Of a stretch of DNA of 37,839 nt, positions 10,143-28,390 are shown piece after piece. A model generated the notes under the pieces. The model did no database searches. It saw only the letters and a list, made by a program, of their open reading frames with translations, and was not told the origin of the DNA. Positions within the stretch are counted from its first letter, which is position 1. Each line of letters opens with the position of its first letter. The translations under genes and the position numbers were made by a program. Origin of the DNA: Muribaculaceae bacterium (GTDB lineage: Bacteria; Bacteroidota; Bacteroidia; Bacteroidales; Muribaculaceae); the NCBI GenBank assembly GCA_017453505.1, contig JAFTEU010000101.1, positions 1 to 37,839 of the forward strand, given 5' to 3'.

Positions 10143-10665
10143 CCTGGACTCCCTCATGCGCGTCATGAACCCCGAGCTGCAGCAATACTGCGCCGAGCAC
10201 AAGGACAGGGCCTACTTCGGCACAGCCCCTACCCTAGTGATACTGCGCCAAGCCTATCATGACGAGGCGGCGACGATGTGGCTGCTGCCTCAGCTCTATG
10301 ACCTGTGCGAGTATTGCGGTGTCAAGGAGAAACTGGACAAGAACCAGCTCAAGCAACTGGCACGCGCCATTGCCAGCGAGTTCGGCTTCCTGAAGGTGAG
10401 CGAGATCATGCTGTTCCTGCACCACTTCAAGGCAGGCAGGTATGGCCGCTTCTATGGTGCCATCGACCCCATGATCATCATCATGGCACTGCGCCACGAC
10501 TTCATGCACGAGCGCGCCGCCGCCATTGAGAAGCGCGAGAGTGCCGAGCGCCAGGCCGAGTGGGATGCCCACTGCCGTCTGGTCGCCAAGCAGCGCGCCG
10601 AGGCCCGTGCCGCTGGCCGCCCGATGTATCCCCGCATGGACACGTCACCCGACACGCACTCATGA
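9991..10665 (+). CDS. Hypothetical phage-like protein (possibly DUF6633 family)
   Basis: This protein has 224 residues if it starts at 9991 (MKHTVKTVKNLLPPT). Alternative ATGs at 10054 and 10159 would reduce or remove the overlap with the preceding gene. The central core is soluble and helical: YHDEAATMWLLPQLYDLCEY, then KQLARAIASEFGFLKVSEIM and FHHFKAGRYGRFYG-like text. I recall this from Bacteroidales proteins annotated DUF6633, but cannot check it. The C-terminal 60 residues are Arg/Glu/Ala-rich and probably a helix. I see no enzymatic motif. Such proteins often accompany the DUF7833 type, which supports a functional pair. The upstream AACCAACCAGAACC resembles the A-rich leader before the first gene, arguing for the 9991 start. 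The stop codon lies 5 bases before the terminator hairpin of the opposing nuo operon. Confidence 0.6.
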   Translation: MKHTVKTVKNLLPPTLSHAANMNEKPAVRKCAALSPRLQPRVNALLSSHSSLDSLMRVMNPELQQYCAEHKDRAYFGTAPTLVILRQAYHDEAATMWLLPQLYDLCEYCGVKEKLDKNQLKQLARAIASEFGFLKVSEIMLFLHHFKAGRYGRFYGAIDPMIIIMALRHDFMHERAAAIEKRESAERQAEWDAHCRLVAKQRAEARAAGRPMYPRMDTSPDTHS

Positions 10666-10701
10666 AAAAAGAGAGCATGGTGGACTACCACGATGCTCTC
10701 T
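10665..10701 (-). terminator. Intrinsic terminator of the nuo-atp operon
   Basis: On the minus strand the stem AGAGAGCATCGTGG / CCACCATGCTCTCT (one mismatch in 14, loop of 4) is followed by six Ts. It lies about 110 bases past the nuoN stop. It may also slow transcription from the converging plus-strand pair, but it has no T-tract on that strand. Confidence 0.8.
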
Positions 10702-10811: not shown

Positions 10812-12281
10812 TTACTGCACGGCGCTGAACATGGCGCCAATGGCATCAACAGCGCCATTGATGCTTGCATAGATGCAAGAAACAAGGCCGATGAAGATGA
10901 TGCCCAGCACACACAGGATCATGCCCGTGCGCTCGGTCCAGTGGCTCTTGAACGCGGGAATCACGCACTCATCCTGACGGATGAACATCGCCTTGACCAC
11001 CAGCAAGTAGTAGTACAGGGAGATGATGGTGTTGACCAGCGCGATGAGTACCAGCGCATAGATGGCCACCGAGCCCTGATGGCAAGCGCCCACAAAGATG
11101 AAGAACTTGCTGAAGAAGCCCGCAAACGGGGGAATACCACCCAGCGAGAACATGGCAAGCATCATCGTGAAGGCCAGCCAGGGGTTGGTCTTGAACAGGC
11201 CGTTGTAGTCGTCCATGGTGACCTTACCAGTCTGGCGCTCGATCGCAGCGATCACGCCGAAGGCGGCGAGGTTGCTGAAGATGTAAACCAGCACATAGTA
11301 GATCATCGAGGACATGCCCATCACGTTAACGGCAATGACACCGAGCATGATGTAACCGGCCTGGGAGATCGACGAGAACGCCAGGAAGCGCTTGAGGTTG
11401 CGCTGACGGATGGCGAACAGGTTACCCAGCGTGATGGTGAGGATGATGACTGCATAGAGCATCCACTCCCACACCTGACTGTAGGCAGCGCCGAAGACCT
11501 GCACCAGAATCACCAGGAACGAGAAGGCGGCAGCACCCTTGCTGATGACCGACAGATAGCTGGTCACAGCAGTGGGAGCACCCTGATAAACGTCGGCCGT
11601 CCACAGGTGGAAGGGAACAAGCGAGAGCTTGAAGCCCACACCGGCGATGACAAAGGCCAGCGCAGCGATCAGCAGCGCCGAGTGGTTGCCGGTGAGCGCG
11701 GTGGCGATATCCTTAAAGTAGAGCGTACCACTCATGCCATAGACAAAGGAGATGCCCAGCAGGAAGATCGCCGACGAGAAGATGGCCGTGAAGATGTACT
11801 TGGCAGCGGCCTCATGCGACTCGTAGTAGCGCTTCTCAAAGGCTGCCAGGGCAGCGATGGGCAGCGAGGCGGTCTCGAGACCGATGACAAACAGCAGGAA
11901 GTGGCGTGCCGAGATCATGAAGAACATGCCCAGCAACGTCAACATCGTCAAGTAGTAGAACTCGCCGCGACGGACGCTGACAAAGTCACTGTTGGTCCAC
12001 TTGACGGCCTGCAGCAGCACCAGCACGACACCCACGTTGAGGATGTTCTTCATCACCCAGGTGGGAGCGTTGGACTGGAACATGCCGCCAAAGGCCTCGC
12101 CCTCCCCAGCGGGGAAGCAGAAGCAGTATATCGTGTAGAGCGCCATCATGATGACCGAGAAAACGGGCAAATAACGCTGAGAGCGCTCCGGCATGAAAGT
12201 GTCATAGATGAAAACGAGCAGGATAACCAGCAACAGGCCTATCTCCTGCGGCATCAACAAGAATTGTGAATAATCCATCAT
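10812..12281 (-). CDS. nuoN: NADH-quinone oxidoreductase-like subunit N
   Basis: This antiporter-like membrane subunit of complex I is one of three proton-translocating channels in the membrane arm. It has 489 residues with about 14 predicted hydrophobic helices. Family hallmarks include the Lys-bearing KLSLVPFHLWTADVYQGAPT segment and FSSISQAGYIMLG. The start is an ATG pair (MMDYSQF); a longer frame would begin at a TTG. It is the last gene of the operon, 43 bp after nuoM, and is followed by a strong terminator. All expected regions are present. Confidence 0.93.
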   Translation of the reverse strand: MMDYSQFLLMPQEIGLLLVILLVFIYDTFMPERSQRYLPVFSVIMMALYTIYCFCFPAGEGEAFGGMFQSNAPTWVMKNILNVGVVLVLLQAVKWTNSDFVSVRRGEFYYLTMLTLLGMFFMISARHFLLFVIGLETASLPIAALAAFEKRYYESHEAAAKYIFTAIFSSAIFLLGISFVYGMSGTLYFKDIATALTGNHSALLIAALAFVIAGVGFKLSLVPFHLWTADVYQGAPTAVTSYLSVISKGAAAFSFLVILVQVFGAAYSQVWEWMLYAVIILTITLGNLFAIRQRNLKRFLAFSSISQAGYIMLGVIAVNVMGMSSMIYYVLVYIFSNLAAFGVIAAIERQTGKVTMDDYNGLFKTNPWLAFTMMLAMFSLGGIPPFAGFFSKFFIFVGACHQGSVAIYALVLIALVNTIISLYYYLLVVKAMFIRQDECVIPAFKSHWTERTGMILCVLGIIFIGLVSCIYASINGAVDAIGAMFSAVQ

Positions 12282-12324
12282 ATCTGTATTATGCAATTTT
12301 TATCAGGTTAAACACTTTCATTTA

Positions 12325-13842
12325 TCACAGGGCAGCCTGCAGGGCCTTGACAACGGGCTCAAAGCTGCTGCTGATGATGTTCACAAAGAAGTTGGGGAAG
12401 CAGCCGATGGCTGCCACGGCCAGAATCAGCGTGGTGGTCGAGAGGCGCTCCTCCCAGCTGGCGTCGGTCAACGTGCGGTGATGCTCATCCTGCACCTCGC
12501 CGAAGAGCAACTTGGCGACAACGCGCAGGATATAGACAGCCGTCACGACAATCGAGGTGGTCGCCATGATGGTGAGCACGCGGTGGAACATGTCGGTGTG
12601 CTGGAACGAGCCGAAGAAGATGGTCATCTCGGCAGCGAAACCACTCAGACCCGGCAGACCCAACGATGCCAGACCGGCGATCACGTAGCCCACGCCCAGG
12701 TAGGGCATGATGTGCATCATGCCACCCATGTCGCGGATGTCGCGGGTGTGGGTGCGGCCATAGATCATACCGATCAGGGCAAAGAACAAGGCCGTCATCA
12801 GACCGTGTGACAACATCTGCAGCACGGCACCGGTCATCGCGGTGGTGTTGAACATCAAGATGGCAAACAGTACCATACCGCAGTGGCTAACGCTGGAATA
12901 AGCGTTGATGTACTTGAGGTCGGTCTGCACACAGGCGCTCAACGCACCATAGACGATGCTGAAGCCCGTCAACAGCAGGAAAATCCAAGCCAACTCATTA
13001 GCGGCAAACGGCATCAGGTAGATGGCGATGCGGAAGCAGCCGTAACCACCGAGCTTCATCAGCACACCGGCGTGGAGCATCGACACCGCGGTGGGCGCCG
13101 AGGCATGACCGTCGGGCGACCATGTGTGGAAGGGGAACATGGCACCCAGCACGCCGAAGCCGACAAACGTCAGCGGGAACAGCACGTACTGCCAGTTGTG
13201 GGGAATCGCATTGTTATGAGCGATGTCCAGGATGTTCATCGTCAAGTTGCCGTCGGCTGCCGAGTGGAAGTAGATACCAATCAGGCCGAGCATCAGGAAG
13301 GCCGAGCCACCCATCAGCATCAGCGTCAGCTTCATGGCACTGTAGTTCTTGTTGCCGCTGCCCCACACGCCGATCAACAGGTACATGGGAATCAGAGCGA
13401 CCTCATAGAACATGAACATCGTGAACAGGTCGATCGAGATAAAGAAGCCGAACACACCCGTGGACAACAGGAAGAACCACAAGAAGAACTGCTTGGGCAG
13501 CGGGTTCATCTTCCACGAGGCGAACACACCGGCGAACACGATGAACGCCGACAGCAGGATCATCACCACGCTCACGCCGTCAACACCCAGCGCCAGCTTG
13601 ATGTTGAACGGGGCATACCACGACACGTCGGTGCGCAGGATCATCTCGCTGGTGTCACCGGCACCGCGGGCTTGCAGGAAGATGCTCACCAGCCAGATGG
13701 CCAGTACCATCAACACGCTCGCGCCGCAGACGGCAACGGTCCTGATGGCCTTGATGCCGCGATTGCTGCACAGGGCCAGGCCTCCAAGTGTCAACAGAGG
13801 CACGATCACAAAGTAAATCAGTATATTATTGAAAATTTCCAT
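12325..13842 (-). CDS. nuoM: NADH-quinone oxidoreductase-like subunit M
   Basis: This 505-residue antiporter-like membrane subunit of complex I has about 14 hydrophobic helices. It shows the conserved Glu of FMFYEVALIPMYLLIG and the channel Lys region PFHTWSPDGHASAPT. AYSSVSHCGMVL is the usual conserved helix. It should conduct one proton per turnover in the membrane arm, between NuoL and NuoN. The start MEIFNNILIYF lies 36 bp after the nuoL stop, on the same transcript. Confidence 0.94.
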   Translation of the reverse strand: MEIFNNILIYFVIVPLLTLGGLALCSNRGIKAIRTVAVCGASVLMVLAIWLVSIFLQARGAGDTSEMILRTDVSWYAPFNIKLALGVDGVSVVMILLSAFIVFAGVFASWKMNPLPKQFFLWFFLLSTGVFGFFISIDLFTMFMFYEVALIPMYLLIGVWGSGNKNYSAMKLTLMLMGGSAFLMLGLIGIYFHSAADGNLTMNILDIAHNNAIPHNWQYVLFPLTFVGFGVLGAMFPFHTWSPDGHASAPTAVSMLHAGVLMKLGGYGCFRIAIYLMPFAANELAWIFLLLTGFSIVYGALSACVQTDLKYINAYSSVSHCGMVLFAILMFNTTAMTGAVLQMLSHGLMTALFFALIGMIYGRTHTRDIRDMGGMMHIMPYLGVGYVIAGLASLGLPGLSGFAAEMTIFFGSFQHTDMFHRVLTIMATTSIVVTAVYILRVVAKLLFGEVQDEHHRTLTDASWEERLSTTTLILAVAAIGCFPNFFVNIISSSFEPVVKALQAAL

Positions 13843-13878
13843 TGTATATCCTTTCTATTTTGTCAAGACCGTTGTTGT

Positions 13879-15876
13879 TTAGAAGATTACACAAATCATC
13901 GTGACTGCGGCCAGCAACAAGGCACCAATCAGGTAGATGAACACATATCCCTGGATGCTGCCCGACTGCAGGCGGCGCACACCGTACGATACCGACTGGG
14001 TAGCGTCGGCCAGCAGGTTCATGAAGCCGTCGATGATGTGACGGTCGAACCAAGCGATGGGCACACAGATGGCTTGGAAGATCACCTTGTGGGTGATGAA
14101 CTGGTAGAGCTCATCCATGTAGAAGCGCTTGTAGCTCGCTGTCCACAGGCCGCGCATCGCGTTAGCCATGCGCTCGGGCAGCGGGTTCTCCTTGTAGTAC
14201 ATCACCGTGGCCAGGCCGATGCCCACCAGGGCAACAGCGACGCTCGAGCCGGCCACCGTCCAGTCGATGGAGGTGTGCAGGTGATGGCCGTCCCAGGTGA
14301 CCATGTCATGGAAGGGGACGAAACCGGCGACCACCGAGATGCATGACAGGATGATCAACGGCAGCGTCATCGTCCAGGGCTGATCCTTGGGAGCGTGATG
14401 CTCGTCGTGAACCTCATGTTTCTTCCAGAAGAAGATGAGGTAGTAGATGCGGAACATGTAGAAGGCGGTCATGCAAGCCACCATCGACATCCACAGGCCC
14501 CAACCCAGGCCGCGGTGATAAGCAGCGACCAGGATCTCGTCCTTGGACCAGAAGCCGGCAAACGGGGGAATACCCGCAATAGCCAGACAGCCGATCAGGA
14601 AGGCAATGCTGGTGATGGGCATGAACTTGTGCAGGCCGTGCATCTTGCTGTTCTCGTTGCTGTGAACGGCATGGATGATGGCACCAGCGCACAGGAAGAG
14701 CAACGCCTTGAACATAGCGTGGGTGAACAGGTGGAACATCGACGCCATGTAACCCAGGCCGTAGCCCTCGTGAATCTCGATGAGCGAGTTGTTGTTCGAC
14801 GAAACGGCCAGCGAGGTCATCATAAAAGCGATCTGCGAGATGGTCGAGAAGGCCAGTGCACGCTTGATGTCGCTCTGGGTGCAGGCAATCGCTGCGGCAT
14901 AGAAGGCCGTGAACGCGCCGACAACCAGAATGACGTTCATCGCACCCTGCACGAGCACATAGAGCGGGAATAACCTTGCCACCAGGAACACACCAGCGAC
15001 AACCATGGTAGCGGCGTGAATCAAGGCCGACACGGGGGTGGGACCCTCCATAGCATCGGGCAGCCAGATGTGCAACGGGTACATCGCACTCTTGCCCGCG
15101 CCGCCAATGAAGATGAACGTCAGGGCCCATGCCATGACCGAGCAACCCATGAAGGTGGCACCACCGGCAGTGCTGATGGCGCTCTGGGCCGTCTCGAGGC
15201 TACCCGACATCGTGGGCCCGAAGACCAGCTTGTCGAAGTCGAACGTGCCGGTGTAATAGCTCAGGATCATGATACCCAACAGGAAGAACAGGTCGGCCAG
15301 ACGGGTGACGATGAAGGCCTTCTTGTTGGCATGGTTGGCCGCAGGCGATGAATAATAGAAACCGATGAGCAGGTAGGACGACAGACCCACCATCTCAAAG
15401 AAGATGAAAATCTGGAAAATGTTGGTAGCCACCACAAGACCCAGCATCGAGAAGGTGAACAGGGCCAGGAAGGCATAGTAACGCTGGAATCCCTTCTCGG
15501 CGTTGCCGTCATGGTCGCTCATGTACCCGAGGCTGTAGAGGTGCACCATCAACGATACCGTGGTGATGACCACAAGCATCATTGCGGCGATGGGGTCAAC
15601 CAGGACACCCATGCGCACCACCAGCGTGTCGGTAAACGACAACCAGGCGGGATTGGCGACAACGACGGCTTGACGCACGCCATCGACCATCTGGCCCTGG
15701 CCGCTACCGAAGAAATAGGTCAACGCCACGCCATAGGCCAGGATCGTGTCAACGAGCATGGCCAGCACGCCAATCACACCCGTGATTTTTCTACCCATTT
15801 TCACCCCGGCGAGTCCCAGGAACAGGAACATGAACAGGGGCAATGCTACAACTACTATTGCTAAACTAAGTGGCAT
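13879..15876 (-). CDS. nuoL: NADH-quinone oxidoreductase-like subunit L
   Basis: This 665-residue distal antiporter-like subunit of complex I has the usual length. Hallmarks include FFEMVGLSSYLLIGFYY, the PLHIWLPDAMEGPTPVSALI proton-channel segment, and AFSTISQIAFMM. The C-terminal region after about residue 470 would form the lateral helix that braces NuoM and NuoN; a hydrophobic anchor at the very end (IYLIGALLLAAVT) supports this. A His-rich loop (HEVHDEHHAPK) precedes that region. The start at MPLSLAIVVVAL is 5 bp after the nuoK stop, so translation is probably coupled. Confidence 0.94.
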   Translation of the reverse strand: MPLSLAIVVVALPLFMFLFLGLAGVKMGRKITGVIGVLAMLVDTILAYGVALTYFFGSGQGQMVDGVRQAVVVANPAWLSFTDTLVVRMGVLVDPIAAMMLVVITTVSLMVHLYSLGYMSDHDGNAEKGFQRYYAFLALFTFSMLGLVVATNIFQIFIFFEMVGLSSYLLIGFYYSSPAANHANKKAFIVTRLADLFFLLGIMILSYYTGTFDFDKLVFGPTMSGSLETAQSAISTAGGATFMGCSVMAWALTFIFIGGAGKSAMYPLHIWLPDAMEGPTPVSALIHAATMVVAGVFLVARLFPLYVLVQGAMNVILVVGAFTAFYAAAIACTQSDIKRALAFSTISQIAFMMTSLAVSSNNNSLIEIHEGYGLGYMASMFHLFTHAMFKALLFLCAGAIIHAVHSNENSKMHGLHKFMPITSIAFLIGCLAIAGIPPFAGFWSKDEILVAAYHRGLGWGLWMSMVACMTAFYMFRIYYLIFFWKKHEVHDEHHAPKDQPWTMTLPLIILSCISVVAGFVPFHDMVTWDGHHLHTSIDWTVAGSSVAVALVGIGLATVMYYKENPLPERMANAMRGLWTASYKRFYMDELYQFITHKVIFQAICVPIAWFDRHIIDGFMNLLADATQSVSYGVRRLQSGSIQGYVFIYLIGALLLAAVTMICVIF

Positions 15877-15881
15877 AATCG

Positions 15882-16193
15882 TTAGAATTTCAGTTTAGTG
15901 ATTTGGTTGATGTCCACGTTCTTGGCAATGCGGAACACATTGATGATGATGGCAATGGCAAGAGCGGTCTCGGCAGCAGCGATGGCAATCGCGAACAGCG
16001 AGAAGAACATGCCTTCCATCTGACCAGGGAACAGGTAACGGTTAAACACCACAAAGTTGATATCCACCGAGTTGAGCATCAACTCCAGCGAAATCATGAT
16101 CGCAATCATGTTCTTGCGCGTGATGAATCCGTAAACACCGCAGCCAAACATGATCAGGCTGGGGATGAGATACATAAATAATGTCAGATCCAT
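15882..16193 (-). CDS. nuoK: NADH-quinone oxidoreductase-like subunit K
   Basis: This 103-residue membrane subunit with three helices is homologous to MrpC. The conserved Glu residues lie in ISLELMLNSVDINFVVF and in AAAETALAIAIIINVFR, the positions that form part of the proton path next to NuoJ and NuoN. Its length is normal. It is 15 bp after nuoJ and 5 bp before nuoL. Confidence 0.93.
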   Translation of the reverse strand: MDLTLFMYLIPSLIMFGCGVYGFITRKNMIAIMISLELMLNSVDINFVVFNRYLFPGQMEGMFFSLFAIAIAAAETALAIAIIINVFRIAKNVDINQITKLKF

Positions 16194-16208
16194 AATCTTA
16201 ATCCATGT

Positions 16209-16724
16209 TTAGCGGCGACGGGCAATAACCACACCTCCAATGATACAAGCCAATAACAACACACTGATGGCCTCAAAAGGCAACAGATAGCCAAACTTGT
16301 CGGTACTCAACAGGAAATGGCCGATCTTTTCCATATTGACGTCCACCCCACTGCTGAGCAATCGTCCGCCGAAGTCGGCATAGCTGAACAGAGCGTAGCC
16401 GCAGACGGCTACACCCGCCAGTGCTGCCGCCAGTCCCAGCCAGCGACGCTGCGTGGCCAGTGCCTCGGCATCCTTGCCGGGCTGCTGCGTGAGCATGATG
16501 GCAAACACAAACAGCACCAGGATACCGCCGGCATAGACGGCAATCTGTACCGCTCCCAGGAACTGGTAGTCCATCTGGAAGTAGATGATGGCTGTGGCAA
16601 AGAGCACAAACAGCAGATAGGTTGCCGAGCGCAGGATCTTGCGCGTGGTGACCGTCAGCACCGAGAAGACGATGATGGCGATGGCAACGATAAAATACAA
16701 AATGATGTTACCTACTGATTCCAT
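16209..16724 (-). CDS. nuoJ: NADH-quinone oxidoreductase-like subunit J
   Basis: This 171-residue membrane subunit has five helices. The segment QIAVYAGGILVLFVFAIML carries the family's pi-bulge helix region, which controls the proton path from the quinone site. Its start shares one base with the nuoI stop (TAATG), so the two are translationally coupled. It ends with a short Arg-rich tail (VVIARRR). Confidence 0.93.
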   Translation of the reverse strand: MESVGNIILYFIVAIAIIVFSVLTVTTRKILRSATYLLFVLFATAIIYFQMDYQFLGAVQIAVYAGGILVLFVFAIMLTQQPGKDAEALATQRRWLGLAAALAGVAVCGYALFSYADFGGRLLSSGVDVNMEKIGHFLLSTDKFGYLLPFEAISVLLLACIIGGVVIARRR

Positions 16725-17284
16725 TATTCTTTGTTTTCTTTAGGTTTTTCTTCGTGGGTCGCTTCGGCAGCGGGCTTAGCGGCTGCGGGAGCAGCGGGCT
16801 TGGCAGCAGGTGCGGGAGCAGGAGCGGGTTCGTCCTTCTCGGGCAGGTAGTTGAGCTGCTTGTGGAGCTTCTCGCGCGTGAAAACGGCCTGCTCAAAGTC
16901 GTTGCTGAAACGGATCGCGTTGGTGGGACACACCTGTACACACAGGCCGCAGAAGGTGCAACTTCCCAGGTCATACATGTACTTGTCGAGCTTCATTTTC
17001 TTCTTGCCGTCAGGCAGTTCCACCATGCGCTTGGTGATGCTGATGGTCTGGTTGGGGCAGTTGCGCTCACAGCTGCCGCAAGCGATACACTTGTGGCCGC
17101 CGTTGTCGTCATAGATGAACTCCAGCGTAGCCCTGAAGCGCTCCGGGATGTGCAGCTCGGCGCGGTTCTCGGGATACTGCTCGGTCACCTTGGGGGTCAC
17201 CAGCTCCATGCCGGTCACCTCCATGCCCTTGATCAGGCTGTAAAAGCCCTTGAAGATTGAGACGAAATACTCCTTAATGTTCAT
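16724..17284 (-). CDS. nuoI: NADH-quinone oxidoreductase-like subunit I, two [4Fe-4S] clusters, with Ala/Pro/Lys-rich tail
   Basis: This 186-residue peripheral-arm subunit passes electrons toward cluster N2 in NuoB. Two ferredoxin motifs are clear: CIACGSCERNCPN and CTFCGLCVQVCPT, each with four ligating cysteines. The last 38 residues form a low-complexity Ala/Pro/Lys/Glu-rich extension that is not part of the core fold. It is the first nuo gene after the atp block, 37 bp from the atpG stop. In most Bacteroidales nuo clusters I know, it would follow nuoH directly. Confidence 0.93.
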   Translation of the reverse strand: MNIKEYFVSIFKGFYSLIKGMEVTGMELVTPKVTEQYPENRAELHIPERFRATLEFIYDDNGGHKCIACGSCERNCPNQTISITKRMVELPDGKKKMKLDKYMYDLGSCTFCGLCVQVCPTNAIRFSNDFEQAVFTREKLHKQLNYLPEKDEPAPAPAPAAKPAAPAAAKPAAEATHEEKPKENKE

Positions 17285-17321
17285 AATATAAAATGTATTC
17301 TTTTAATCTAAACACTTCGCG

Positions 17322-18206
17322 TTAGCGTTCCACCTGGCCGCCCAGGATGTCGAGCAGCTCGGTGGTGATGCCCTGCTGACGCAGTTTGTTGTACTCCAGT
17401 TGCAGCTCGTCGAGCAGCTCCTTGGCGTTGTCGCTGGCCGCCTGCATCGCCATCACGCGCGCGCTCTGTTCACTGGCCGCGCTCTGGATGAAGACATTCT
17501 GGAGCATCGACTTGATGTGCAGGGGCAGCACGGTGTTGAAGATGGTGTTGGCGTCCGGCTCGAACAGGCAGGGGCTGTTGGCGGCACGGGGGTCAACATT
17601 GTCGGCAAGGCCCTGGTAGCTCACGGGGAGCAACTGCTCGCGCGTGAACACCTGCTTGCCCGTGGAGATGAAGTGCATGTAGAGCATCTCCACGCGGTCA
17701 AACGTGTGCTCCAGGAAGCGCTGCTTCATCAGGTCGGTGAAGGTGTACAGGTCCTCGCTGCCGCTGCGGGTGTTGAGGGCCACGCGCTCCATCTGGATAT
17801 CCTTGCCGGCTATTTTCTCGACCGCCTTGGTCATCTTCTTGCCCACAGGCACGACGGTGATGCCCACCTGCTGGCCGTACTCGCGTCGCACCTCCTGGAT
17901 GCTCTGGAGCAACTGCTTGAAGATGTTGACGTTGAAGCCGCCACACAGGCCGTCGTCGCTACCGAATACCACAAGTGCGACACGCTGCACATCGCGCTCG
18001 GCGATGAGCGGGGAGTCAAACTGCTGGTCGGTCACCAGCAGGTGGCTGATGACGTGCTGCACCATGTGGCGGTAGGGAGACAGGCGCTGCAACTGGCCGG
18101 TGGCCTTGCGCATCTTGGACGACGAGATCATCTTCATGGCACTCGTTGTCTTCTGCGTCGAGGCTACCGAGCCTATTCGCGTCTTGAGTTCTCTTAATGT
18201 TGACAT
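17322..18206 (-). CDS. atpG: F-type ATP synthase gamma subunit
   Basis: This 294-residue central stalk subunit turns inside the alpha3-beta3 ring. The N-terminal helix (LRELKTRIGSVASTQKTTSA) and the C-terminal helix (EQSARVMAMQAASDNAKEL) carry the conserved family sequences, and FGSDDGLCGGFN is the usual central signature. Its length is normal. It is the last atp gene, 34 bp after atpA. Confidence 0.95.
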   Translation of the reverse strand: MSTLRELKTRIGSVASTQKTTSAMKMISSSKMRKATGQLQRLSPYRHMVQHVISHLLVTDQQFDSPLIAERDVQRVALVVFGSDDGLCGGFNVNIFKQLLQSIQEVRREYGQQVGITVVPVGKKMTKAVEKIAGKDIQMERVALNTRSGSEDLYTFTDLMKQRFLEHTFDRVEMLYMHFISTGKQVFTREQLLPVSYQGLADNVDPRAANSPCLFEPDANTIFNTVLPLHIKSMLQNVFIQSAASEQSARVMAMQAASDNAKELLDELQLEYNKLRQQGITTELLDILGGQVER

Positions 18207-18240
18207 CTTGCGAACTTAATGATTTCTTCGTTCAAGGTGA

Positions 18241-19836
18241 TTAACTGGCGGCACCCTGGGTGTAACGGGCGGCGACCTCGGCGGCGGCAGCCTTGAGCTT
18301 AGCCATCACGTCGTCGTCGATCTTACCGGTGCGCAGCACGTCGAGGACATCCTGCTGGTGCTTGCCGCGCAGGTACTGGATGAACAGCTTCTCAAACTCG
18401 CCCACCTTCTCCAGGGGCACGTCGCGCAACAGGCCGTTCACACCGCAATAGATGATGGCTACCTGCTCCTCGACCTGCATGGGTGTGTACTGGGGCTGCA
18501 CGAGCAGGCGCTCGTTCTTGCGGCCCGTGTCGATGGTGCGGGCGGTAACGGGGTCGATGTCGCCACCAAACTTGGTGAAGGCCTCGAGCTCACGGTACTG
18601 CGCCTGAGCGATCTTGAGGGTACCTGCTACCTTCTTCATACACTTGATCTGAGCGTTACCGCCGACACGCGATACCGAGATACCCACGTTCACGGCCGGG
18701 CGGATACCCGAGTTGAACAGGGCCGACTCCAGATAGATCTGGCCGTCGGTGATCGAGATCACGTTGGTGGGGATATAGGCGCTCACGTCGCCGGCCTGGG
18801 TCTCGATGATGGGAAGTGCCGTCAACGAGCCGCCGCCCTTGACGATGGGCTTGAGGGGCTCGGGCAGGTCGTTCATCACGCTGGCCACTGCCTGGTTCTC
18901 GTTGATCTTGGCGGCGCGTTCCAGCAGGCGGCTGTGCAGATAGAAGATATCGCCGGGATAAGCCTCGCGGCCCGAGGGGCGCTTGAGGATCAGCGAGATC
19001 TCACGATAGGCGACAGCATGCTTGGACAAGTCGTCATAGATCACGAGCGCGTCACGACCGGTGTCACGGAAGTATTCACCGATGGCAGCGCCGGCAAACG
19101 GTGCGTAGTAGCGCATCGAAGCCGAGTCGGCAGCGGTGGCAGCCACGACGATGGTATAGGGCAGCGCGCCGCTCTCCTCGAGCTTGTTGACCAGTGCGGC
19201 AACGGTCGAAGCCTTCTGGCCGATGGCGACATAGATGCAATATACCGGCTTGCCAGCCTCAAAGTTGGCACGCTGGTTGATGATGGTGTCCACCGCGATG
19301 GCGGTCTTGCCGATCTGGCGGTCACCGATGATGAGCTCACGCTGGCCACGGCCGATGGGGATCATCGAGTCGATGGCCTTGAGGCCCGTCTGCAACGGCT
19401 GGTTCACGGGCTGGCGGAAGATGACGCCGGGAGCCTTGCGCTCCAGCGGCAGACGCAGCTTCTTGCCCTCGATGTTTCCCTTGCCGTCGATGGGCTTGGC
19501 CAGGACGTTGATCACGCGGCCCAGCAGCCCCTCACCCACCTCGATGGAAGCGATTTCACCCGTGCGGCGAACCTTCATGTTCTCGGTCACGGTGTCGACC
19601 TCATCGAGCAGGATGATACCCACGTCGCTCTCCTCCAGGTTCATGGCGACACCGGTCACGCCGTTCTCGAACTGCACGAGCTCGTTGGCCTCGACATTGT
19701 GCAGGCCATAGGCATGAGCCACGCCGTCACCCACCTCCAGGACGGTGCCTTCTTCCTCAAAGGCCACCTGACGCTTGGCGATGTCATCGACGAGCTGCTG
19801 CTTCAGTATATCAGATATTTCACTGGGATTAATCAT
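18241..19836 (-). CDS. atpA: F-type ATP synthase alpha subunit
   Basis: This 531-residue subunit forms the non-catalytic nucleotide-binding sites of F1. It has the beta-barrel N-terminus, a P-loop near residue 175, and the alpha signature [14 protein letters not shown] with the conserved Arg. The P-loop reads GDRQIGKT, where GDRQTGKT is near-universal; the DNA codon is ATC. The stator-binding N-terminal segment ([15 protein letters not shown]) is intact. It is 23 bp after atpH. Confidence 0.95.
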
Positions 19837-19859
19837 CTCTATTAATCTTCTTGAGTCAA

Positions 19860-20402
19860 TTATTTCTTTTGCAATTGCAATCGCAATTCGTTCAATTCTC
19901 TCTTTACCGACGCGTCAAGCACCAGGCCGTTGATCGTCACGGTGAACCCACCGATCAACTCCGGGTCGATGACCTGCTCGATCTCGAGCGACATCGCGCC
20001 CAGGCGCTTCTTCACGATATCGATAATGGCATTGACCTCGGCCTCGGGCATGGGGACAGCGGTGGTGATGACCACATGGGCTATCTCGTGGGCCTCACGG
20101 TAGAGATCGACGTAGGCGAGGGAGATCTTCTGCAAGTACTCGGCGCGGCCATTGCGCACGCACAGCAGCAGGAACTTGTCCAGCGAGCTGCCGGGCCTGC
20201 CGCCCACGAGCTTGAGCATGAAGGCCCCCTTATCCTCGTCAGAGATTTCGGGGTTGAGCACCGCGCGCTTGAGTTCGTCGATAGCGGTGTAGCGGAAGCT
20301 GAGCGACTTCAGGAGCTCATAGATTTCCTGAGCGTCACCGTTCTCGACGGCGTACTTGTACAACGCTTTGGCGTATCGGCGTGGAATCAGTCCGTCACTC
20401 AT
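19860..20402 (-). CDS. atpH: F-type ATP synthase delta subunit
   Basis: This 180-residue stator subunit joins the b subunits to the top of F1. It has the N-terminal six-helix bundle start ([15 protein letters not shown]) and the C-terminal signature [20 protein letters not shown]. Its length is typical. It starts 6 bp after the atpF stop, so coupling is likely. Confidence 0.93.
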
Positions 20403-20408
20403 ATCGCG

Positions 20409-20906
20409 TTAGTTTTTAGTCTCAACCTCACTCAGATATTGGTCAACAAGCGCCTTCTGGGCATCATCGCTGGCAATATTGCGTCGGATGACCTTCTCGG
20501 CGATCTGCAGCGCCAGGTCACCGACCTCGCTGCGCAGTTGCTTCTCGGCCTCCTTGCGTGCCTGCTCAAGTGAAACTTGAGCGGCATCGGTCACCTTCTT
20601 GGCCTCGTCGGCAGCCTCGCCGCGAGCCTTCTCGATGAGCTCGTTGCGCATCTTGGCAGCCTCGCGCAGGATCTCAGCCTGCTCGTTACGGGCTTCGGCA
20701 AGCAACTTGTCCGCCTCGGCCTTGGCGTTGTCCAGATGCGACTTGGCCTCCTGTGCATAGGCCACGCCCTTGTCGATCAAGTCGGCACGTTCCTCCATAC
20801 TCTTGATGATGAAGGGCCACGCCCACTTGGCAAGGATGCCAAAGAGGCACAGGAATGCGATGAACATCCAGAATGCCAGGCCAAATTCAGGCTTGAAAAG
20901 TTCCAT
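20409..20906 (-). CDS. atpF: F-type ATP synthase b subunit
   Basis: This 165-residue peripheral stalk subunit has one membrane helix (about residues 8-28, FGLAFWMFIAFLCLFGILAK). A long charged Ala/Glu/Lys-rich coiled coil follows (about 30-150, for example AQEAKSHLDNAKAEADKLLA). A single b gene is present, so the stalk is probably a homodimer. It is 23 bp after atpE. Confidence 0.93.
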   Translation of the reverse strand: MELFKPEFGLAFWMFIAFLCLFGILAKWAWPFIIKSMEERADLIDKGVAYAQEAKSHLDNAKAEADKLLAEARNEQAEILREAAKMRNELIEKARGEAADEAKKVTDAAQVSLEQARKEAEKQLRSEVGDLALQIAEKVIRRNIASDDAQKALVDQYLSEVETKN

Positions 20907-20929
20907 CTGGTAAACCGGTTAAGGGTTGA

Positions 20930-21232
<303 letters not shown>

Positions 21233-21277
21233 GTTGCCATGTTGTCGATCCTTGCAGGCGGCCACTGCCGGCGTCGC

Positions 21278-22342
21278 TCACTCGTGGTGGGCGTGGACGT
21301 GGGCCATCGAGATGAACATGGTCGAGAGGATGGTGAACACATAGGCCTGGATGAAACTTACCAGGGTGTCCAGAATGAGCATGAACAGCGACAAGAGCAC
21401 CGACAGTACCGTCATGCCGCCGCCAACGGCTGCACCGAACATGCTGCCGAAGATGAAGATCAACAGCATGAACACGATCACCACCATGTGACCGCCCATC
21501 ATGTTGGCAAAGAGACGGATCATCAATGCGATGGGCTTGGTGAAGATGCCGAACAGCTCGATAATCTGCATCAGGGGCACCGGGCACTTGAGCGCCGTGG
21601 GCACCTCGGGCCAGAACATCTCCTTCCAGTAGTGCTTGGTACCCGTGAGGTTGGTCACCAGGAAGGTGATCACGGCCAGGACAGCGGTCACGGCCAGGTT
21701 ACCCGTCAGGTTAGCGCCACCGGGGAAGATCACGATCAGGCCCAGCAGGTTCATGGTCAGGATAAAGAAGAATACCGTCAACAGGTAGGGGCCATACTTG
21801 GGCGCCTCCTTGCCCATGATGGGGCGGATGGTGTCGGTATAGACAAAGTCCACCACCACCTCGAGGGCTGCGGTAAAGCGGCGCGGTGCCTTCATTCCGT
21901 TTTTCTTGTACCAGTTCTTGATCTTGAAGACCACCAGCAGCACCACGAGGGCGGCAATCAGGATGCCGGCGACATTCTTGGTGATGGAGAGGTCCACGGG
22001 ACGGTACTGGCTGCCGTCGGGCAGGATCTGGACAACCTTGTTGTTGTAGTCCCCACCCTGGGCGATCTGGAACCCGTCATACTGGGCGCCATCGGCCAGA
22101 CGGCACGACATGAAAGCATGCCACGAGCCGTCCTGGGCGCGCACGATGACCGGTAACGGGATGCGCTTGCTATGCGAGAAGGGCACCTCCCAGCCATAGG
22201 AGTCACCCAGGTGCTCAAAGATGATCTCCTGGGCATTCACCTCATGCATCTGGCCATCGCTGTGATGGGCGGCCTCGGCATAGCCGAGCGCCATCAGCAC
22301 GATGACGGCAACTGCGATGATTGCTGCGATTGCTTTCTTCAT
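21278..22342 (-). CDS. atpB: F-type ATP synthase a subunit with signal-like N-terminus
   Basis: This 354-residue membrane subunit contains the proton half-channels. The essential Arg sits in MIRLFANMMGGHMV. It is longer than the E. coli form because of a signal-like helix (residues 1-24) and an extracytoplasmic domain of about 100 residues, an arrangement seen in Bacteroidetes. The C-terminus is His-rich (HVHAHHE). It is 9 bp after atpC, with no atpI-like gene between them as found in some relatives. Confidence 0.94.
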   Translation of the reverse strand: MKKAIAAIIAVAVIVLMALGYAEAAHHSDGQMHEVNAQEIIFEHLGDSYGWEVPFSHSKRIPLPVIVRAQDGSWHAFMSCRLADGAQYDGFQIAQGGDYNNKVVQILPDGSQYRPVDLSITKNVAGILIAALVVLLVVFKIKNWYKKNGMKAPRRFTAALEVVVDFVYTDTIRPIMGKEAPKYGPYLLTVFFFILTMNLLGLIVIFPGGANLTGNLAVTAVLAVITFLVTNLTGTKHYWKEMFWPEVPTALKCPVPLMQIIELFGIFTKPIALMIRLFANMMGGHMVVIVFMLLIFIFGSMFGAAVGGGMTVLSVLLSLFMLILDTLVSFIQAYVFTILSTMFISMAHVHAHHE

Positions 22343-22351
22343 AGTCTTGCG

Positions 22352-22585
22352 TTAATAGAGGCAAACCGACACCACATTATCTTTTACATCGGCCACACCG
22401 CCGTGAATCTCACGCTCCACGGTGTTGCCATCGGCCACATAGCTCATCTTGCCGGCCTTGAGGGCGGCGATGAGCGCGGCATGGTTATTGAGCACCTGGA
22501 ACTGTCCCATGACGCCGGGCAGCGTCACCTGTTCGATGGTGCCTTCAAACTCGATTTGTTCAGCCGATATGATTTTGAGTGTCAT
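22352..22585 (-). CDS. atpC: F-type ATP synthase epsilon subunit, beta-domain only
   Basis: This 77-residue protein contains only the N-terminal beta-sandwich (EFEGTIEQVTLPGVMGQF, then NNHAALIAALKAG). The C-terminal helical hairpin, which inhibits ATP hydrolysis in many bacteria, is missing. Short epsilon subunits are common in Bacteroidetes, so this is probably not a truncation. It is 43 bp after atpD. Confidence 0.92.
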   Translation of the reverse strand: MTLKIISAEQIEFEGTIEQVTLPGVMGQFQVLNNHAALIAALKAGKMSYVADGNTVEREIHGGVADVKDNVVSVCLY

Positions 22586-22628
22586 GTTATATTAATAATG
22601 TATATTCAAGATTTGATACAGGTCGTGA

Positions 22629-24155
<1,527 letters not shown>

Positions 24156-24188
24156 TTATGATATTTATGTTTAGTCTATTTCATTTAC

Positions 24189-25271
24189 TCATGCACCGAA
24201 GTACCACCCCTGGGTCACGATGATGGCCATCACCACCAGGTTGACCAGGCCGATGGGCATCAGGTAACGCCACTCCAGCGCCAGCATCTGGTCGATGCGC
24301 ACGCGGGGGAACGACCAGCGGATCCAGAAGAAGATGAAGGTGATGAAGAAGGCCTTGCCCAGGAACCACACCACGCTGGGGATGTAGTCCATCACGTTGT
24401 TGAAGCCCTCCCATCCGGGGATGTGCAGGGGCATCCACCCGCCCAGGAAGAGCAGTGTGGCGATGCCCGACACGATGAACAGGTTGAGGTACTCGGCCAG
24501 GTAGAAGAAGCCGAAGTGGATGCCCGAGTACTCGGTGTGGTAACCGGCAGTGAGCTCGTGCTCGGCCTCGGGAAGGTCAAACGGGCCACGGTTGTTCTCG
24601 GCATTGGCAGCGATCATATATATAATGAACGCGAGAATGGCGGGCAGGTGGCCCTTGAACAGGAACCAGCCGTCCTGCTGCGCCTCGACGATGCCCGTGA
24701 TCGACATGGTGCCGGCAAGGCAGACGATGGTCAGGATCGAGATGCCGCACGAGAGCTCGTAGCTGATCATCTGCGCACCGCTGCGCATAGCGCCGATGAG
24801 GGTATACTTGCTGTTACTCGACCAACCGGCCAGCAGGATGCCCAGCACACCGATTGAGGAAACGGCCACGATGAAGAAGACACCGATGTTCATGTCAATA
24901 ATCTGGAGGCCCTTGCCCCAAGGCAGGCAGGCAAACGTCAGCATCGAGGCGATCAGCACCAGATAGGGCGCCAACTTGAAGAGGAACTTGTCGGTGTGCC
25001 ACAGGGTGATCAGCTCCTTCTGCAGGATCTTGATCACGTCGGCAAACACCTGGAGCAAGCCCCACTTGCCCACGCGCATCGGGCCCAGGCGGCACTGGAT
25101 CCAGCCGCAGACCTTGCGCTCGTAGAAGATGTAGAACATGGCGATAAGCGAGTAAGCGACCAGCAGGCCCACGGCCACCAGCACACACTCGATGGTCGTG
25201 GTGAGCCAGGACGGCATGAAGCCGTTCATCCAGTTGTCCAACCAATTAGTGACTGATGCGAAGTCAAACAT
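24189..25271 (-). CDS. nuoH: NADH-quinone oxidoreductase-like subunit H
   Basis: This 360-residue membrane subunit forms the quinone chamber and links the peripheral and membrane arms. It has about eight hydrophobic helices. Hallmarks are [20 protein letters not shown] and the acidic loop [20 protein letters not shown]. It is the last nuo gene before the atp block. Length and order are normal up to this point. Confidence 0.94.
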
Positions 25272-25321
25272 ATCTTATCTATCTTTTTAGTGATTTTTGT
25301 TCGTATGGATTAACTCGTTGA

Positions 25322-26956
25322 TTAGCGGTCAATGTCGGGGATGACAAAGTCGAGCGACGCCGTGATGGTGATCAGGTCGGCGATCATGTTGTCACGGCAC
25401 GTCAGGTCAACCACGCCGATCAGGTTGTAGCACGGCGACTGGAAGTGGACGCGCACCGGCTTGGTGTTGCCGTCACTCTCGATGTACACGCCGAAGGCTC
25501 CGCGGCTGGCCTCTACCTGCTGGTACCAGTGGCCGGCGGGCAGCTTCATCACCTTGGGCACCTTGGGGGCGCAGTACTCGCCCTGGATGCCCTCGGCCTC
25601 GAGCTTGTCGCAGGCCTGACGCAGGATCTTGATGCTCTGCTCCATCTCGCGCATGCGCACCATGTAGCGGTCCATCGAGTCACCGTTCCCATAGACGACC
25701 TCGTCGAAGTCAAACTCGTCATACAACGAGTAGGGGTTGGTCTTGCGCACGTCGCAGTGCCAACCGCTGGCACGGCCCGAGGGGCCGGTGATGGCATAGT
25801 CGATGGCATCCTGCTTGCTCAGGATGCCCACGCCCGTCATGCGGTTCACGGCGATGACATTGCCGGTGAACAGCTTGTGGTACTCGGCCAGGTTCTTCTC
25901 AATCACGTCACAGGCATGGCGCACGTCCTTGATGAAGTCCTCGTGCACGTCGGCCACCACGCCGCCGATGGTGCTGTAGCTCATCGACATGCGGGCACCG
26001 CAGGTGCGGTCAAAGATGTCATAGATCAACTCCCTCTCACGGAAGCCGTAGAAGAATGCCGTCGTGGCGCCCTGGTCCATCGTCAAGCAACCGTAGCTCA
26101 GCAGGTGGGACGACAAGCGCATGAGCTCGTCCATCATCAGGCGGATGAGCTCGGCACGGCGCGGCACCTCCAGGCCCAGGGCCTTCTCCACACACATGCA
26201 CATGCAGTGGCGGTTGATGTGTGCCGCCATATAGTCCATGCGCTCGGTGTAGAGCAGCATCTGGGGATAGGTCAGCGACTCGCACATCTTCTCGATGCCG
26301 CGGTGGATGTAGCCGCTCACGACGTCCACCTTCTTGATGATCTCACCGTCAAGGCTGGCGCGGTAGCGCATCACGCCATGGGTGGAGGGGTGCTGCGGTC
26401 CCACGTTGATGACATACTCGTCGTCCTCAAACACCTTGCCGTCGACCTTCTTGACCTTGCCGTTCTCGTCCTCGACCCAGCGGCAGGTATAGTCCTCGTT
26501 GGTCTCGTCCTCGAGACGCAGGGGGTTGCTGGCGGGGTCATAGTCCTTGCGCAGGGGGTAGCCCACCCAGTCGGTGCGCAGGAACATGCGGCGCATGTCG
26601 GGGTGGCCGATGAACACGATGCCAAAGAAGTCATACACCTCGCGCTCCTGGAAATTGGCCACGGGCCACAGGTCCACCACGGAGTGCAGGCGCGGGTGCT
26701 CGCGGTCGGCGGTAGCCACCTTGACGTGCAGCAGCTCGTGGGTGCTTGTATTGGTCAGGTAATAAACACAGCCCAGGGCTTCGGTCCAGTCCATGCCGAC
26801 GACGGCGCTCAGCACGTCGTAGTGCAGCTGGCTCTTCAACGCACGGGCCAGGTCGTGCCACTGAGCGTCATCGACGGTGACCATCGGGAACTCGCCCGTG
26901 GTGTCAACGGTGGCCTGTGGGCACAACTGTGTGATTTTGTTCTCTATCTCTGCCAT
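25322..26956 (-). CDS. nuoCD: Fused NADH-quinone oxidoreductase-like subunit C/D
   Basis: This 544-residue fusion covers the 30-kDa subunit C (residues 1 to about 150, with EREVYDFFGIVFIGHPDMRR) and the 49-kDa subunit D (about 170-544). The D part has GPQHPSTHGVMRY, GYIHRGIEKMCE and the C-terminal VDLTCRDNMIADLITI, which is in line with the quinone-site subunit. The C-D fusion is typical of Bacteroidetes and enterobacteria. It is 21 bp after nuoB. Confidence 0.95.
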   Translation of the reverse strand: MAEIENKITQLCPQATVDTTGEFPMVTVDDAQWHDLARALKSQLHYDVLSAVVGMDWTEALGCVYYLTNTSTHELLHVKVATADREHPRLHSVVDLWPVANFQEREVYDFFGIVFIGHPDMRRMFLRTDWVGYPLRKDYDPASNPLRLEDETNEDYTCRWVEDENGKVKKVDGKVFEDDEYVINVGPQHPSTHGVMRYRASLDGEIIKKVDVVSGYIHRGIEKMCESLTYPQMLLYTERMDYMAAHINRHCMCMCVEKALGLEVPRRAELIRLMMDELMRLSSHLLSYGCLTMDQGATTAFFYGFRERELIYDIFDRTCGARMSMSYSTIGGVVADVHEDFIKDVRHACDVIEKNLAEYHKLFTGNVIAVNRMTGVGILSKQDAIDYAITGPSGRASGWHCDVRKTNPYSLYDEFDFDEVVYGNGDSMDRYMVRMREMEQSIKILRQACDKLEAEGIQGEYCAPKVPKVMKLPAGHWYQQVEASRGAFGVYIESDGNTKPVRVHFQSPCYNLIGVVDLTCRDNMIADLITITASLDFVIPDIDR

Positions 26957-26977
26957 ATCTAATGGATTTTATCGGGT

Positions 26978-27586
26978 TTATTTGGTTTGGACCTTCAATT
27001 CGCCTCCGTCATACTGCAGGTCGAGCTTCTCCTTGCGGTTCACGCCGCCAAAGTACTTCTGCACCTTGATCTTGCGCTGCAGCTGCATCAGGGCATAGAA
27101 GAAGGCCTCGGGACGGGGCGGGCAGCCGGGCAGATAGACGTCAACGGGGATGATCTCGTCCACGCCCTTGACCACGCAGTAGCTGTTCTTGAACGGGCCG
27201 CCGCTCACGGTGCACGAGCCGCATGCGATGACATACTTGGGCTCGGCCATCTGCTCATACAGGCGCTTCAAGGCCGGTGCCATGCGGTAGTTGATGGTAC
27301 CCTGGCACATGATGTAGTCGGCCTGGCGGGGGCTGTTGCGGGCCACCTCAAAGCCGTAGCGCGCCATGTCGTAGCGCGCGGCGCCCAGGCACATGAACTC
27401 GATAGCGCAGCAGCTGGTGCCGAAGCACAGCGGCCACAGCGAGTTGCTCACGCCCCAGTTCATCAACTGGTCCAGCTTGCCCACCACGATGTTGGTGCCA
27501 CCGGCGCGCAGCTGCTCTACCAGACTGTCGATATACTCGTTGTCCTTGAAGTCCTCATGCTTCATCGACTTGATTTTCACTTCCAT
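26978..27586 (-). CDS. nuoB: NADH-quinone oxidoreductase-like subunit B, cluster N2
   Basis: This 202-residue subunit binds the terminal [4Fe-4S] cluster N2 next to quinone. Ligands are visible in FGTSCCAIEFM, CGSCTVSGGPF and LPGCPPRPEAFF. The start MEVKIKSMKHEDF at 27586 overlaps the end of nuoA by 10 bases; a longer frame to 27697 only reads through nuoA in another frame. It is the second gene of the operon. Confidence 0.95.
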   Translation of the reverse strand: MEVKIKSMKHEDFKDNEYIDSLVEQLRAGGTNIVVGKLDQLMNWGVSNSLWPLCFGTSCCAIEFMCLGAARYDMARYGFEVARNSPRQADYIMCQGTINYRMAPALKRLYEQMAEPKYVIACGSCTVSGGPFKNSYCVVKGVDEIIPVDVYLPGCPPRPEAFFYALMQLQRKIKVQKYFGGVNRKEKLDLQYDGGELKVQTK

Positions 27587-27951
27587 CTCAACGCTCCTTT
27601 CTTCCAGGCATAAGCCAGACCTAAAACCAGAATAACGAGGAAAGTGCCCACGGCCAGCAGCGCCTGGCTGCCGATGCCCTTGCAGATGGTTGCCCACGGG
27701 AACAGGAATACCGTCTCCACGTCAAACATCAGGAACAAGATGGCAAACAGGTAATAACCCACGTGATACTGGGCCATCGAGTCGCCACGGGTGGGGATAC
27801 CGCACTCAAAGGGCTCGCCTTTCTTCTTTGTGTAACTGCGCGGCCCAATCAGCCACGCGATAACCAGGGCACCGACTACCAGCAACACACCGGTCAAGGC
27901 CGCTGTGATGGCGAGAGTCGAGCTCTGTACTCCGAAAATTGCTGAATCCAT
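27577..27951 (-). CDS. nuoA: NADH-quinone oxidoreductase-like subunit A
   Basis: This 124-residue subunit has three membrane helices. The conserved cytoplasmic loop KGEPFECGIPTRGDS and the acidic helix FLMFDVETVFLFPWA are present. It is the first gene of the run, behind a canonical promoter about 140-170 bases upstream. No nuoE, nuoF or nuoG lies in or next to the operon. Confidence 0.95.
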   Translation of the reverse strand: MDSAIFGVQSSTLAITAALTGVLLVVGALVIAWLIGPRSYTKKKGEPFECGIPTRGDSMAQYHVGYYLFAILFLMFDVETVFLFPWATICKGIGSQALLAVGTFLVILVLGLAYAWKKGALRWK

Positions 27952-28087
27952 AAAAGAAATCTACTTGTTATGTTTTGTTTAATTTTTGGCAGGTTAATAC
28001 ATGTCAACGCACCAAACGCACTACTGCACAACAACTTACCGCCCGAAGGCGCAAGCAATTGCAACAGTGATGCCCTGAAATGCGGTG

Positions 28088-28118
28088 CAAATATACACAT
28101 TTTTTAATTATCCACAAA
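28088..28118 (-). promoter_or_regulatory. Promoter of the nuo-atp operon
   Basis: Minus strand: TTTG (28115-28118), 19-base spacer, TATATTTG (28088-28095). This is a full match to the Bacteroidales consensus. Transcription would start near 28084, giving a 5' leader of about 130 bases before nuoA. Confidence 0.75.
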
Positions 28119-28235
28119 CCTTTTTCACTGCTATTTTTCGCACTTGTCAACAACTTCATTCACATTGCACGAGCAGCCCATTTTTCACATCGCTATCAAG
28201 CACGGCACCGGCCACCCCATTCAACGACTTTACCT

Positions 28236-28323
28236 CACGCAAAGCCGCCAAGCCGCGAAGTTTTAAAATGGTGCTCGCAAGTGCTCGCAAAAAAATAGCT
28301 TTGCGGCTTGGCGACTTAGCGTG
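28236..28323. repeat. CACGCAAAG-family element, short form (88 bp)
   Basis: Left end CACGCAAAGCCGCCAAGCCG and right end GCGGCTTGGCGACTTAGCGTG are imperfect inverted repeats built of octamers. A small direct repeat (GTGCTCGCAA twice) lies between them. A single half copy follows at 28362-28390. The 27952-28646 gap holds the nuo promoter and these repeats; I see no gene in it. Confidence 0.7.
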
Positions 28324-28361
28324 AGGTTCAGTCGTCAGTTGCATCCGCGCACTTGGGGCCT

Positions 28362-28390
28362 CACGCAAAGCCGCAAAGCCGCGAAGTTTT
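28362..28390. repeat. Half copy of the CACGCAAAG-family repeat
   Basis: CACGCAAAGCCGCAAAGCCG followed by CGAAGTTTT matches the left end of the element at 28236. No inverted partner lies nearby. Confidence 0.65.

Follow-up and report, generated by a model that had tools for sequence, protein, structure and literature searches.

The 37,839-nt stretch of DNA analyzed here (the window) corresponds to positions 1 to 37,839 of contig C47 of the metagenome-assembled genome (MAG) G000, which comprises 188 contigs and is 88.8% complete. On its minus strand, an ATP synthase (atp) operon lies inside the operon for respiratory complex I (nuo), and the 18 genes identified with Pfam follow one another from position 27951 down to 10812 in the order nuoA-B-CD-H, atpD-C-B-E-F-H-A-G, and nuoI-J-K-L-M-N. 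The best explanation, to which we assign a probability of roughly 80%, is a single 18-gene unit that would go back to one ancestral nesting event, would then have been inherited vertically, and would stand under the shared control of the promoter in front of nuoA.

This gene order on one strand had been proposed in a sequence-only reading of the window, and it proved correct to the base in coordinates and Pfam assignments, with nuoA starting at 27951 and nuoN stopping at 10812. Of the junction spacers, the one between nuoH and atpD (24129..24188, minus strand) measures 60 nt and the one between atpG and nuoI (17285..17321, minus strand) 37 nt; the remaining internal spacers range from -10 to 105 nt, and the junctions are therefore unremarkable in length. 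As the same reading had stated, the promoter motif TAnnTTTG is missing from both spacers according to the motif count, and no terminator-like site was listed for either in the terminator scan. A promoter of the Bacteroidetes type could be read from the sequence in front of nuoA (28088..28118, minus strand), consisting of TTTG at 28118-28115, 19 nt, and TATATTTG at 28095-28088, which starts at -144 relative to nuoA. Roughly 110 nt downstream of nuoN, the cluster is followed by a putative intrinsic terminator (10665..10700, minus strand), read from the sequence as a hairpin at 10700-10671 with a T-run, the core of which was also recovered in the terminator scan. The window thus shows the hallmarks of a single unit, i.e., one strand, short spacers, a promoter motif at the front, and a terminator at the end, with neither of the latter at the junctions.

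Distribution and origin of the nested order

The sequence-only reading had suggested looking for the two junctions in related genomes, and they were found there in large numbers. A NuoH search of public assemblies, in which the neighboring genes were typed by tblastn with the proteins of the window, returned 75 loci, of which 59 are nested (nuoH followed by atpD), 13 are not nested, and three end at nuoH (L036, L070, and L074). These loci do not all represent independent genomes, as L002/L036, L041/L074, and L060/L070 share assemblies; the nested ones span several projects and include one labeled as an isolate (L057 [Isolate-037]). Within a family sample of 69 genomes from 30 genera, 62 genomes have nuoH and atpB on the same strand at a distance of about 2 kb. 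The other seven comprise four genomes with a nuoH-atpD junction (G165, G173, G181, and G184), one with an atpG-nuoI junction (G156), and two whose contigs end right after nuoH (G162 and G164). At least one nested junction is accordingly present in 67 of the 69 genomes, the contigs of the remaining two ending too early, and nuoH followed by nuoI was not seen in the family sample. The spacers remain short in the nested loci, with a median length of 51 nt for nuoH-atpD (n = 96) and 39 nt for atpG-nuoI (n = 54).

In the order, nesting is rare, in agreement with the earlier expectation that nuoH is usually followed by nuoI in Bacteroidales. The order sample of 119 genomes from 118 families contained eight genomes and seven families with nesting by coordinates among the matches listed, and the best 30 NuoH loci of this sample were divided into 22 with nuoH followed by nuoI and eight with nuoH followed by atpD. 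The full 18-gene order was recovered in L148-L154, which represent six families outside that of the window and one more genome of its own. The matches listed for a phylum sample of 90 genomes, including that of the window, contained no further case of nuoH and atpB within 5 kb of each other. Looser arrangements exist, e.g., in G208 from another family of the phylum (L216-L217), where atpB-E-A-G and nuoH-I are found on the same strand and contig with about 8 kb from atpG to nuoH, in G187 with nuo and atp genes apart on opposite strands of one contig, and in G106 with both operons on opposite strands of one contig at a distance of about 11 kb. The interval in G106 holds genes for a HAD hydrolase, a sigma factor with FecR, a TonB receptor, SusD, and peptidases.

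NuoH of the window is 97% identical to that of MAGs labeled Muribaculaceae, and a similar identity was found to MAGs labeled Prevotellaceae, Porphyromonadaceae, and Bacteroidales. The family of the window is most likely the Muribaculaceae, which we take to be the current name of S24-7 or "Ca. Homeothermaceae." For S24-7, one section of a study from 2016 (Microbiome; PMC4936053) reports that 25 of 30 genomes encode an 11-subunit complex I lacking NuoEFG and that 26 genomes have an F-type ATP synthase, located within the complex I locus. The window, with its atp genes inside the complex I locus and 11 of 14 subunits, matches this description and probably derives from the same family. The novelty that the sequence-only reading had implied does not hold in this respect: if the window belongs to the family, as the labels of its relatives suggest, the nesting was already known, and new are the wider distribution, the likely single origin, the promoter asymmetry, and the covarying nuoA leader. 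The exact gene order, the junctions, the promoters, the origin, and the occurrence outside the family are not part of that section of PMC4936053 and are supplied by the present analysis. Our literature search returned no report of nesting besides PMC4936053, and for the six further families we claim absence from print only within the reach of that search.

Like the window, Bacteroides fragilis has an 11-subunit nuo operon without nuoEFG (BF638R_0841-0850; PMC7002350), but the part of that paper describing the operon mentions no atp genes, and its ten locus tags would leave no room for eight of them. Conversely, the stand-alone atpD-C-B-E-F-H-A-G operons of other Bacteroidales (e.g., G106, G008, and G003) have the same internal gene order as that of the window but lie outside nuo, and the stand-alone type mostly has a promoter motif of its own (see below).

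Two concatenated trees, one of nuo (33 taxa) and one of atp (30 taxa), each based on eight proteins, were calculated from a hand-picked set of 38 taxa; matches had to reach 55% coverage, and taxa had to have five or more of the eight genes. All 19 nested taxa fall on one side of a split that received FastTree support values of 0.999 to 1.0 (nuo) and 1.0 (atp) and an ultrafast bootstrap value of 100 in the IQ-TREE analysis of nuo. With the root placed among the other taxa, the nested families branch off in an identical order in the two trees, with G088 first, then G060 together with G068 and G028, and then G021 with G109 beside the family of the window; the position of G025 inside this last group differs between the trees. 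In the atp tree, G106 adjoins the nested clade with a support of 0.946, and its one-contig layout could hint at an ancestral neighborhood of the two operons, but it groups with G023 in the nuo tree. Because the nested taxa form one clade for nuo as well as for atp, the nesting most likely arose once and was passed on vertically. The event would date to an ancestor shared by the window's family and six or more sister families, in which the native atp operon would have moved between nuoH and nuoI, or the operons would have been fused by a rearrangement, and the nested form would have been inherited from then on; no loss of nesting was seen in the genomes sampled.

Two other explanations of the gene order can be weighed against these data. 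An error of assembly or a chimeric contig might be suspected, as the MAG is fragmented and the window is a single contig of it, but the same order in most of the NuoH loci from several projects, including one labeled as an isolate, one or both junctions in nearly all genomes of the family, and the nesting published for S24-7 (PMC4936053) refute it; recurrence in dozens of assemblies is far beyond chance, and the probability of an artifact is negligible. Horizontal transfer of the nested cluster or repeated convergence under strong selection for co-expression is very improbable. Its long retention does suggest selection, and the loose linkage of nuo and atp on a shared contig in G106, G208, and G187 speaks in the same direction, but the single clade, within which the nested families branch alike in both trees, and the lack of nesting among the matches listed for the remaining 89 genomes of the phylum sample argue for one event followed by vertical descent.

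Transcription of the cluster

The promoter consensus of Bacteroidetes is described as TAnnTTTG at -7 with TTTG around -33 (PMC7366714). We counted TAnnTTTG upstream of the genes of interest, excluding sequences more than 95% identical (ungapped) or with less than 300 nt upstream, and compared the counts with expectations from mononucleotide shuffles. Within 300 nt, the motif precedes 56 of 61 nested nuoA genes (11.1 expected), in many cases at about -130 to -145, but only 3 of 87 nested atpD genes (11.4 expected). Stand-alone operons have it in front of atpD in six of eight cases (1.5 expected) and in front of nuoA in 6 of 13 (1.8 expected). Internal genes of the nested cluster served as controls and gave 3/87 for nuoH (4.7 expected), 0/68 for atpA (4.3 expected), and 8/45 for nuoL (5.5 expected). 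Within 150 nt, the counts are 49/61 for nested nuoA, 3/87 for nested atpD, 5/8 for stand-alone atpD, and 6/13 for stand-alone nuoA. The stand-alone atpD count covers 8 of the 13 loci in the set; 20 further stretches contributed only L178 and L183, of which only L183 has a usable atpD start. Nested atpD genes thus mostly lack the motif that is usual before stand-alone atpD, and this comparative evidence speaks for a single transcription unit that begins with nuoA.

Several observations weigh against such a unit. The absence of a motif is not the absence of a promoter, and two of the eight stand-alone atpD genes, including that of G106, also lack TAnnTTTG. The motif precedes 6 of 55 nested nuoI genes within 300 nt (1.8 expected); within 150 nt, the count is 2/55 (1.1 expected), none with a TTG partner. 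In G088 (L153), the deepest nested lineage, TAnnTTTG occurs at -51 and -109 before atpD, with TAATTTTG located in the nuoH-atpD spacer and the second motif at -109. Downstream of atpG, strong hairpins are present in G060 and G068 (z = -3.6 and -2.7 versus shuffles), compared with a median z of -0.1 in 50 other nested loci, five of which are below -2. In addition, a sigma-70-like match covers positions 17312-17283 in the atpG-nuoI spacer of the window. Such matches number 19 in the region versus 9.0 in shuffles, and this one was set aside because Bacteroidetes use another consensus (PMC7366714).

The strong hairpins in the atpG-nuoI spacers of two sister families (L151 and L152) are perhaps relics of an old atp terminator. 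The motifs of G088 and the hairpins of G060 and G068 may indicate that the transcription unit is split in those lineages. They would also fit relics of the atp operon's own promoter and terminator that were later lost, a scenario built on single genomes. Among six stand-alone atp operons that were folded after atpG, one (L169) has by eye a clear hairpin with a T-run, and the idea of a relic terminator therefore has little backing.

The genes could accordingly be neighbors with separate transcripts, nuo and atp being expressed apart either from internal promoters of another type or by read-through combined with termination at a junction. Besides the features of G088, G060, and G068 and the sigma-70-like match in the window, physiology can be counted in favor of such an arrangement, as atp is generally needed more constantly than nuo; the nuo operon of B. 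fragilis is poorly expressed in rich medium, as described in part of PMC7002350. The depletion of the motif before nested atpD, set against its frequency before stand-alone atpD, the short junction spacers, and the window's junctions free of motif and listed terminator all speak against it, and we regard separate expression as possible but unlikely. We infer instead that in most descendants of the nested ancestor the atp genes, devoid of a Bacteroidetes-type promoter of their own, would be read from the promoter before nuoA and that the transcript would pass a leader with a stem-loop conserved in part of the family and end at the terminator after nuoN.

The previously proposed single transcript of 17 kb is thus backed by the comparative motif counts as far as one transcription unit is concerned, but the corollary that it fixes the ratio of proton pump to ATP synthase is without support, because being transcribed together does not determine the ratio in which proteins are made. 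From a single atp message, about ten c-subunits are produced for each gamma subunit, and the atpG-nuoI hairpins of two other nested families could make the ratio of pump to synthase unequal. The outcome would rather be a shared on/off control of the proton pump and of the enzyme that uses the gradient, and their ratio need not be fixed.

The nuoA leader

The 5' leader of nuoA (27952..28091, minus strand) contains a candidate conserved stem-loop that is suggested by covariation. It could be aligned over about 140 nt in 34 of 62 nested loci, which had been picked for having a correctly spaced promoter motif and a CCAAAAAT-like element, so that the conservation of these two features in the alignment is partly due to selection. 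RNAalifold predicted 13 pairs in two helices, and 11 of the pairs are changed on both sides. The covariation score of 0.440 compares with a shuffle mean of 0.302 and was reached by none of 500 shuffles, the number of pairs changed on both sides was reached by 3 of 500, and slid versions of the alignment scored 0.04 to 0.19; related sequences can, however, exceed such shuffles without any structure. Taken alone, the leader of the window has a z of -1.1, and 31 of 200 shuffles fold at least as well. Its inner hairpin (28059-28038) also appeared in the terminator scan, without a clean T-run. Judged by eye, six more distant leaders (L035, L039, L043, L047, L048, and L069) form a comparable long stem-loop downstream of the promoter, the leader of L050 has no motif, and an Rfam scan of the leader gave no match at the gathering score.

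The leader model R1 produced one strong match each in 19 of 297 genomes of the family, all of them from the genus of the window and all just before nuoA. Marginal matches in G450 (E = 0.03) and G399 (E = 0.06) have no adjacent nuo gene. On the 72 source sequences, R1 found 36 strong matches, including L010 and L070 from outside the training set, and two weak ones, and it misses divergent leaders that fold alike by eye. The nuoA leader is a candidate cis-acting leader of the operon. A more far-reaching proposal, i.e., an oxidative-phosphorylation regulon with one promoter whose 17-kb message is controlled by a new structured nuoA RNA leader switching both complexes together, appears doubtful.

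Encoded complexes, neighboring features, and significance

All genes of the cluster are encoded on the minus strand. The front part comprises nuoA (27577..27951; PF00507, E = 1.8e-34), nuoB (26978..27586; PF01058 in the longer frame, NF011391 above cut-off), which overlaps nuoA by 10 nt, the fusion nuoCD (25322..26956; PF00346 and PF00329), and nuoH (24189..25271; PF00146, E = 6.8e-117). The atp genes encode the subunits beta (atpD, 22629..24128; PF00006, TIGR01039 above cut-off), epsilon (atpC, 22352..22585; PF02823), a (atpB, 21278..22342; PF00119), c (atpE, 20930..21172, 80 amino acids; PF00137, TIGR01260 above cut-off), b (atpF, 20409..20906; PF00430), delta (atpH, 19860..20402; PF00213), alpha (atpA, 18241..19836; PF00006, TIGR00962 above cut-off), and gamma (atpG, 17322..18206; PF00231, TIGR01146 above cut-off). 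They are followed by nuoI (16724..17284; Fer4 domains, best NCBIfam model TIGR01971), nuoJ (16209..16724; PF00499), nuoK (15882..16193; PF00420), nuoL (13879..15876; PF00361 and PF00662, TIGR01974 above cut-off), nuoM (12325..13842; PF00361), and nuoN (10812..12296; PF00361, TIGR01770 above cut-off). As nuoL, nuoM, and nuoN all contain Proton_antipo_M, the identity of nuoM was assigned from its position in the operon. NCBIfam agreed on the names of the 10 proteins submitted, with NuoI and AtpC remaining under the cut-off of the best-matching general model. AtpC is a short form of 77 amino acids with the beta-sandwich domain only, and its match to TIGR01216 stops at position 76 of 130. The C-terminal helical domain that it lacks inhibits ATP hydrolysis in other ATP synthases.

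Pfam detected no nuoE, nuoF, or nuoG in the cluster of the window, which comprises 11 of the 14 complex I subunits. The sole Complex1_51K match found in the 88.8% complete G000 is located on C87, beside genes for Fe-only hydrogenases and a NuoE-like protein; this locus (L218 [C87:1-9000]) with NuoF- and NuoE-like genes and two Fe-only hydrogenases is probably an NADH-linked hydrogenase. One F-type a subunit was found in the window's own genome, and eight nested genomes that were examined each have a single F-type a subunit but lack the V-type D subunit, so that they appear to possess no rotary ATPase/ATP synthase besides the nested enzyme. The unit would thus encode an 11-subunit complex I and the apparently sole rotary ATP synthase. 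The loss of a V-type ATPase was considered as a partner trait of nesting and rejected, as the enzyme is also absent from most of the order sample: V-type matches occurred in 43 of its 119 genomes (42 over cut-off), and the 69 genomes of the family gave a single marginal match (G178). Unlike S24-7, for which NQR is reported in 27 of 30 genomes in the section cited above (PMC4936053), G000 has just two Rnf-Nqr matches, which adjoin each other on C57, compared with four in 11 of 13 other genomes, five in G023, and two in G028; an absence of NQR or RNF from the incomplete MAG is not certain. The c subunit was inspected by eye, in helix 2 and elsewhere, for the Gln...Glu-Ser/Thr ligands of sodium-coupled enzymes; it has Ile where the Ilyobacter subunit has Gln, and by this comparison it may be proton binding.

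The surroundings of the cluster contain further features. A dispersed palindromic repeat (CGCAAAGCCGCNAAG-like) is found at 28224-28528, at 9118, 35399, and 35546 of the window, and across G000; three direct copies of it and inverted arms lie between a gene with a metallo-beta-lactamase fold and nuoA. A degenerate 15-base pattern of this kind of repeat matched 74 times in the genome, compared with once for the reversed control, and the dispersed repeat looks like a repetitive extragenic palindromic (REP)-type element. Four Rfam matches to miRNA families, obtained at a relaxed threshold and far below the gathering scores, were rejected; they fall on the plus strand and overlap or adjoin the dispersed repeat. 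On the other strand upstream of nuoA, a TonB-dependent receptor plug protein (29584-31818, plus strand) and a sigma-70-type factor with regions 2 and 4 (35683-36243, plus strand), which with 186 amino acids has a size like that of extracytoplasmic function (ECF) factors, are encoded. Two neighboring proteins (3172-5724 and 6130-8772, minus strand) combine LRR_4 repeats with a dockerin type I domain at the C terminus.

The genes for the proton pump and the ATP synthase are located apart in most of the sampled Bacteroidales genomes. Their nesting means that one deletion can remove both complexes, for which genome H5, described in PMC4936053 as lacking the two together, may be compared. With the inner promoter motif mostly gone, the nested clade represents a natural test of selection for co-expression.

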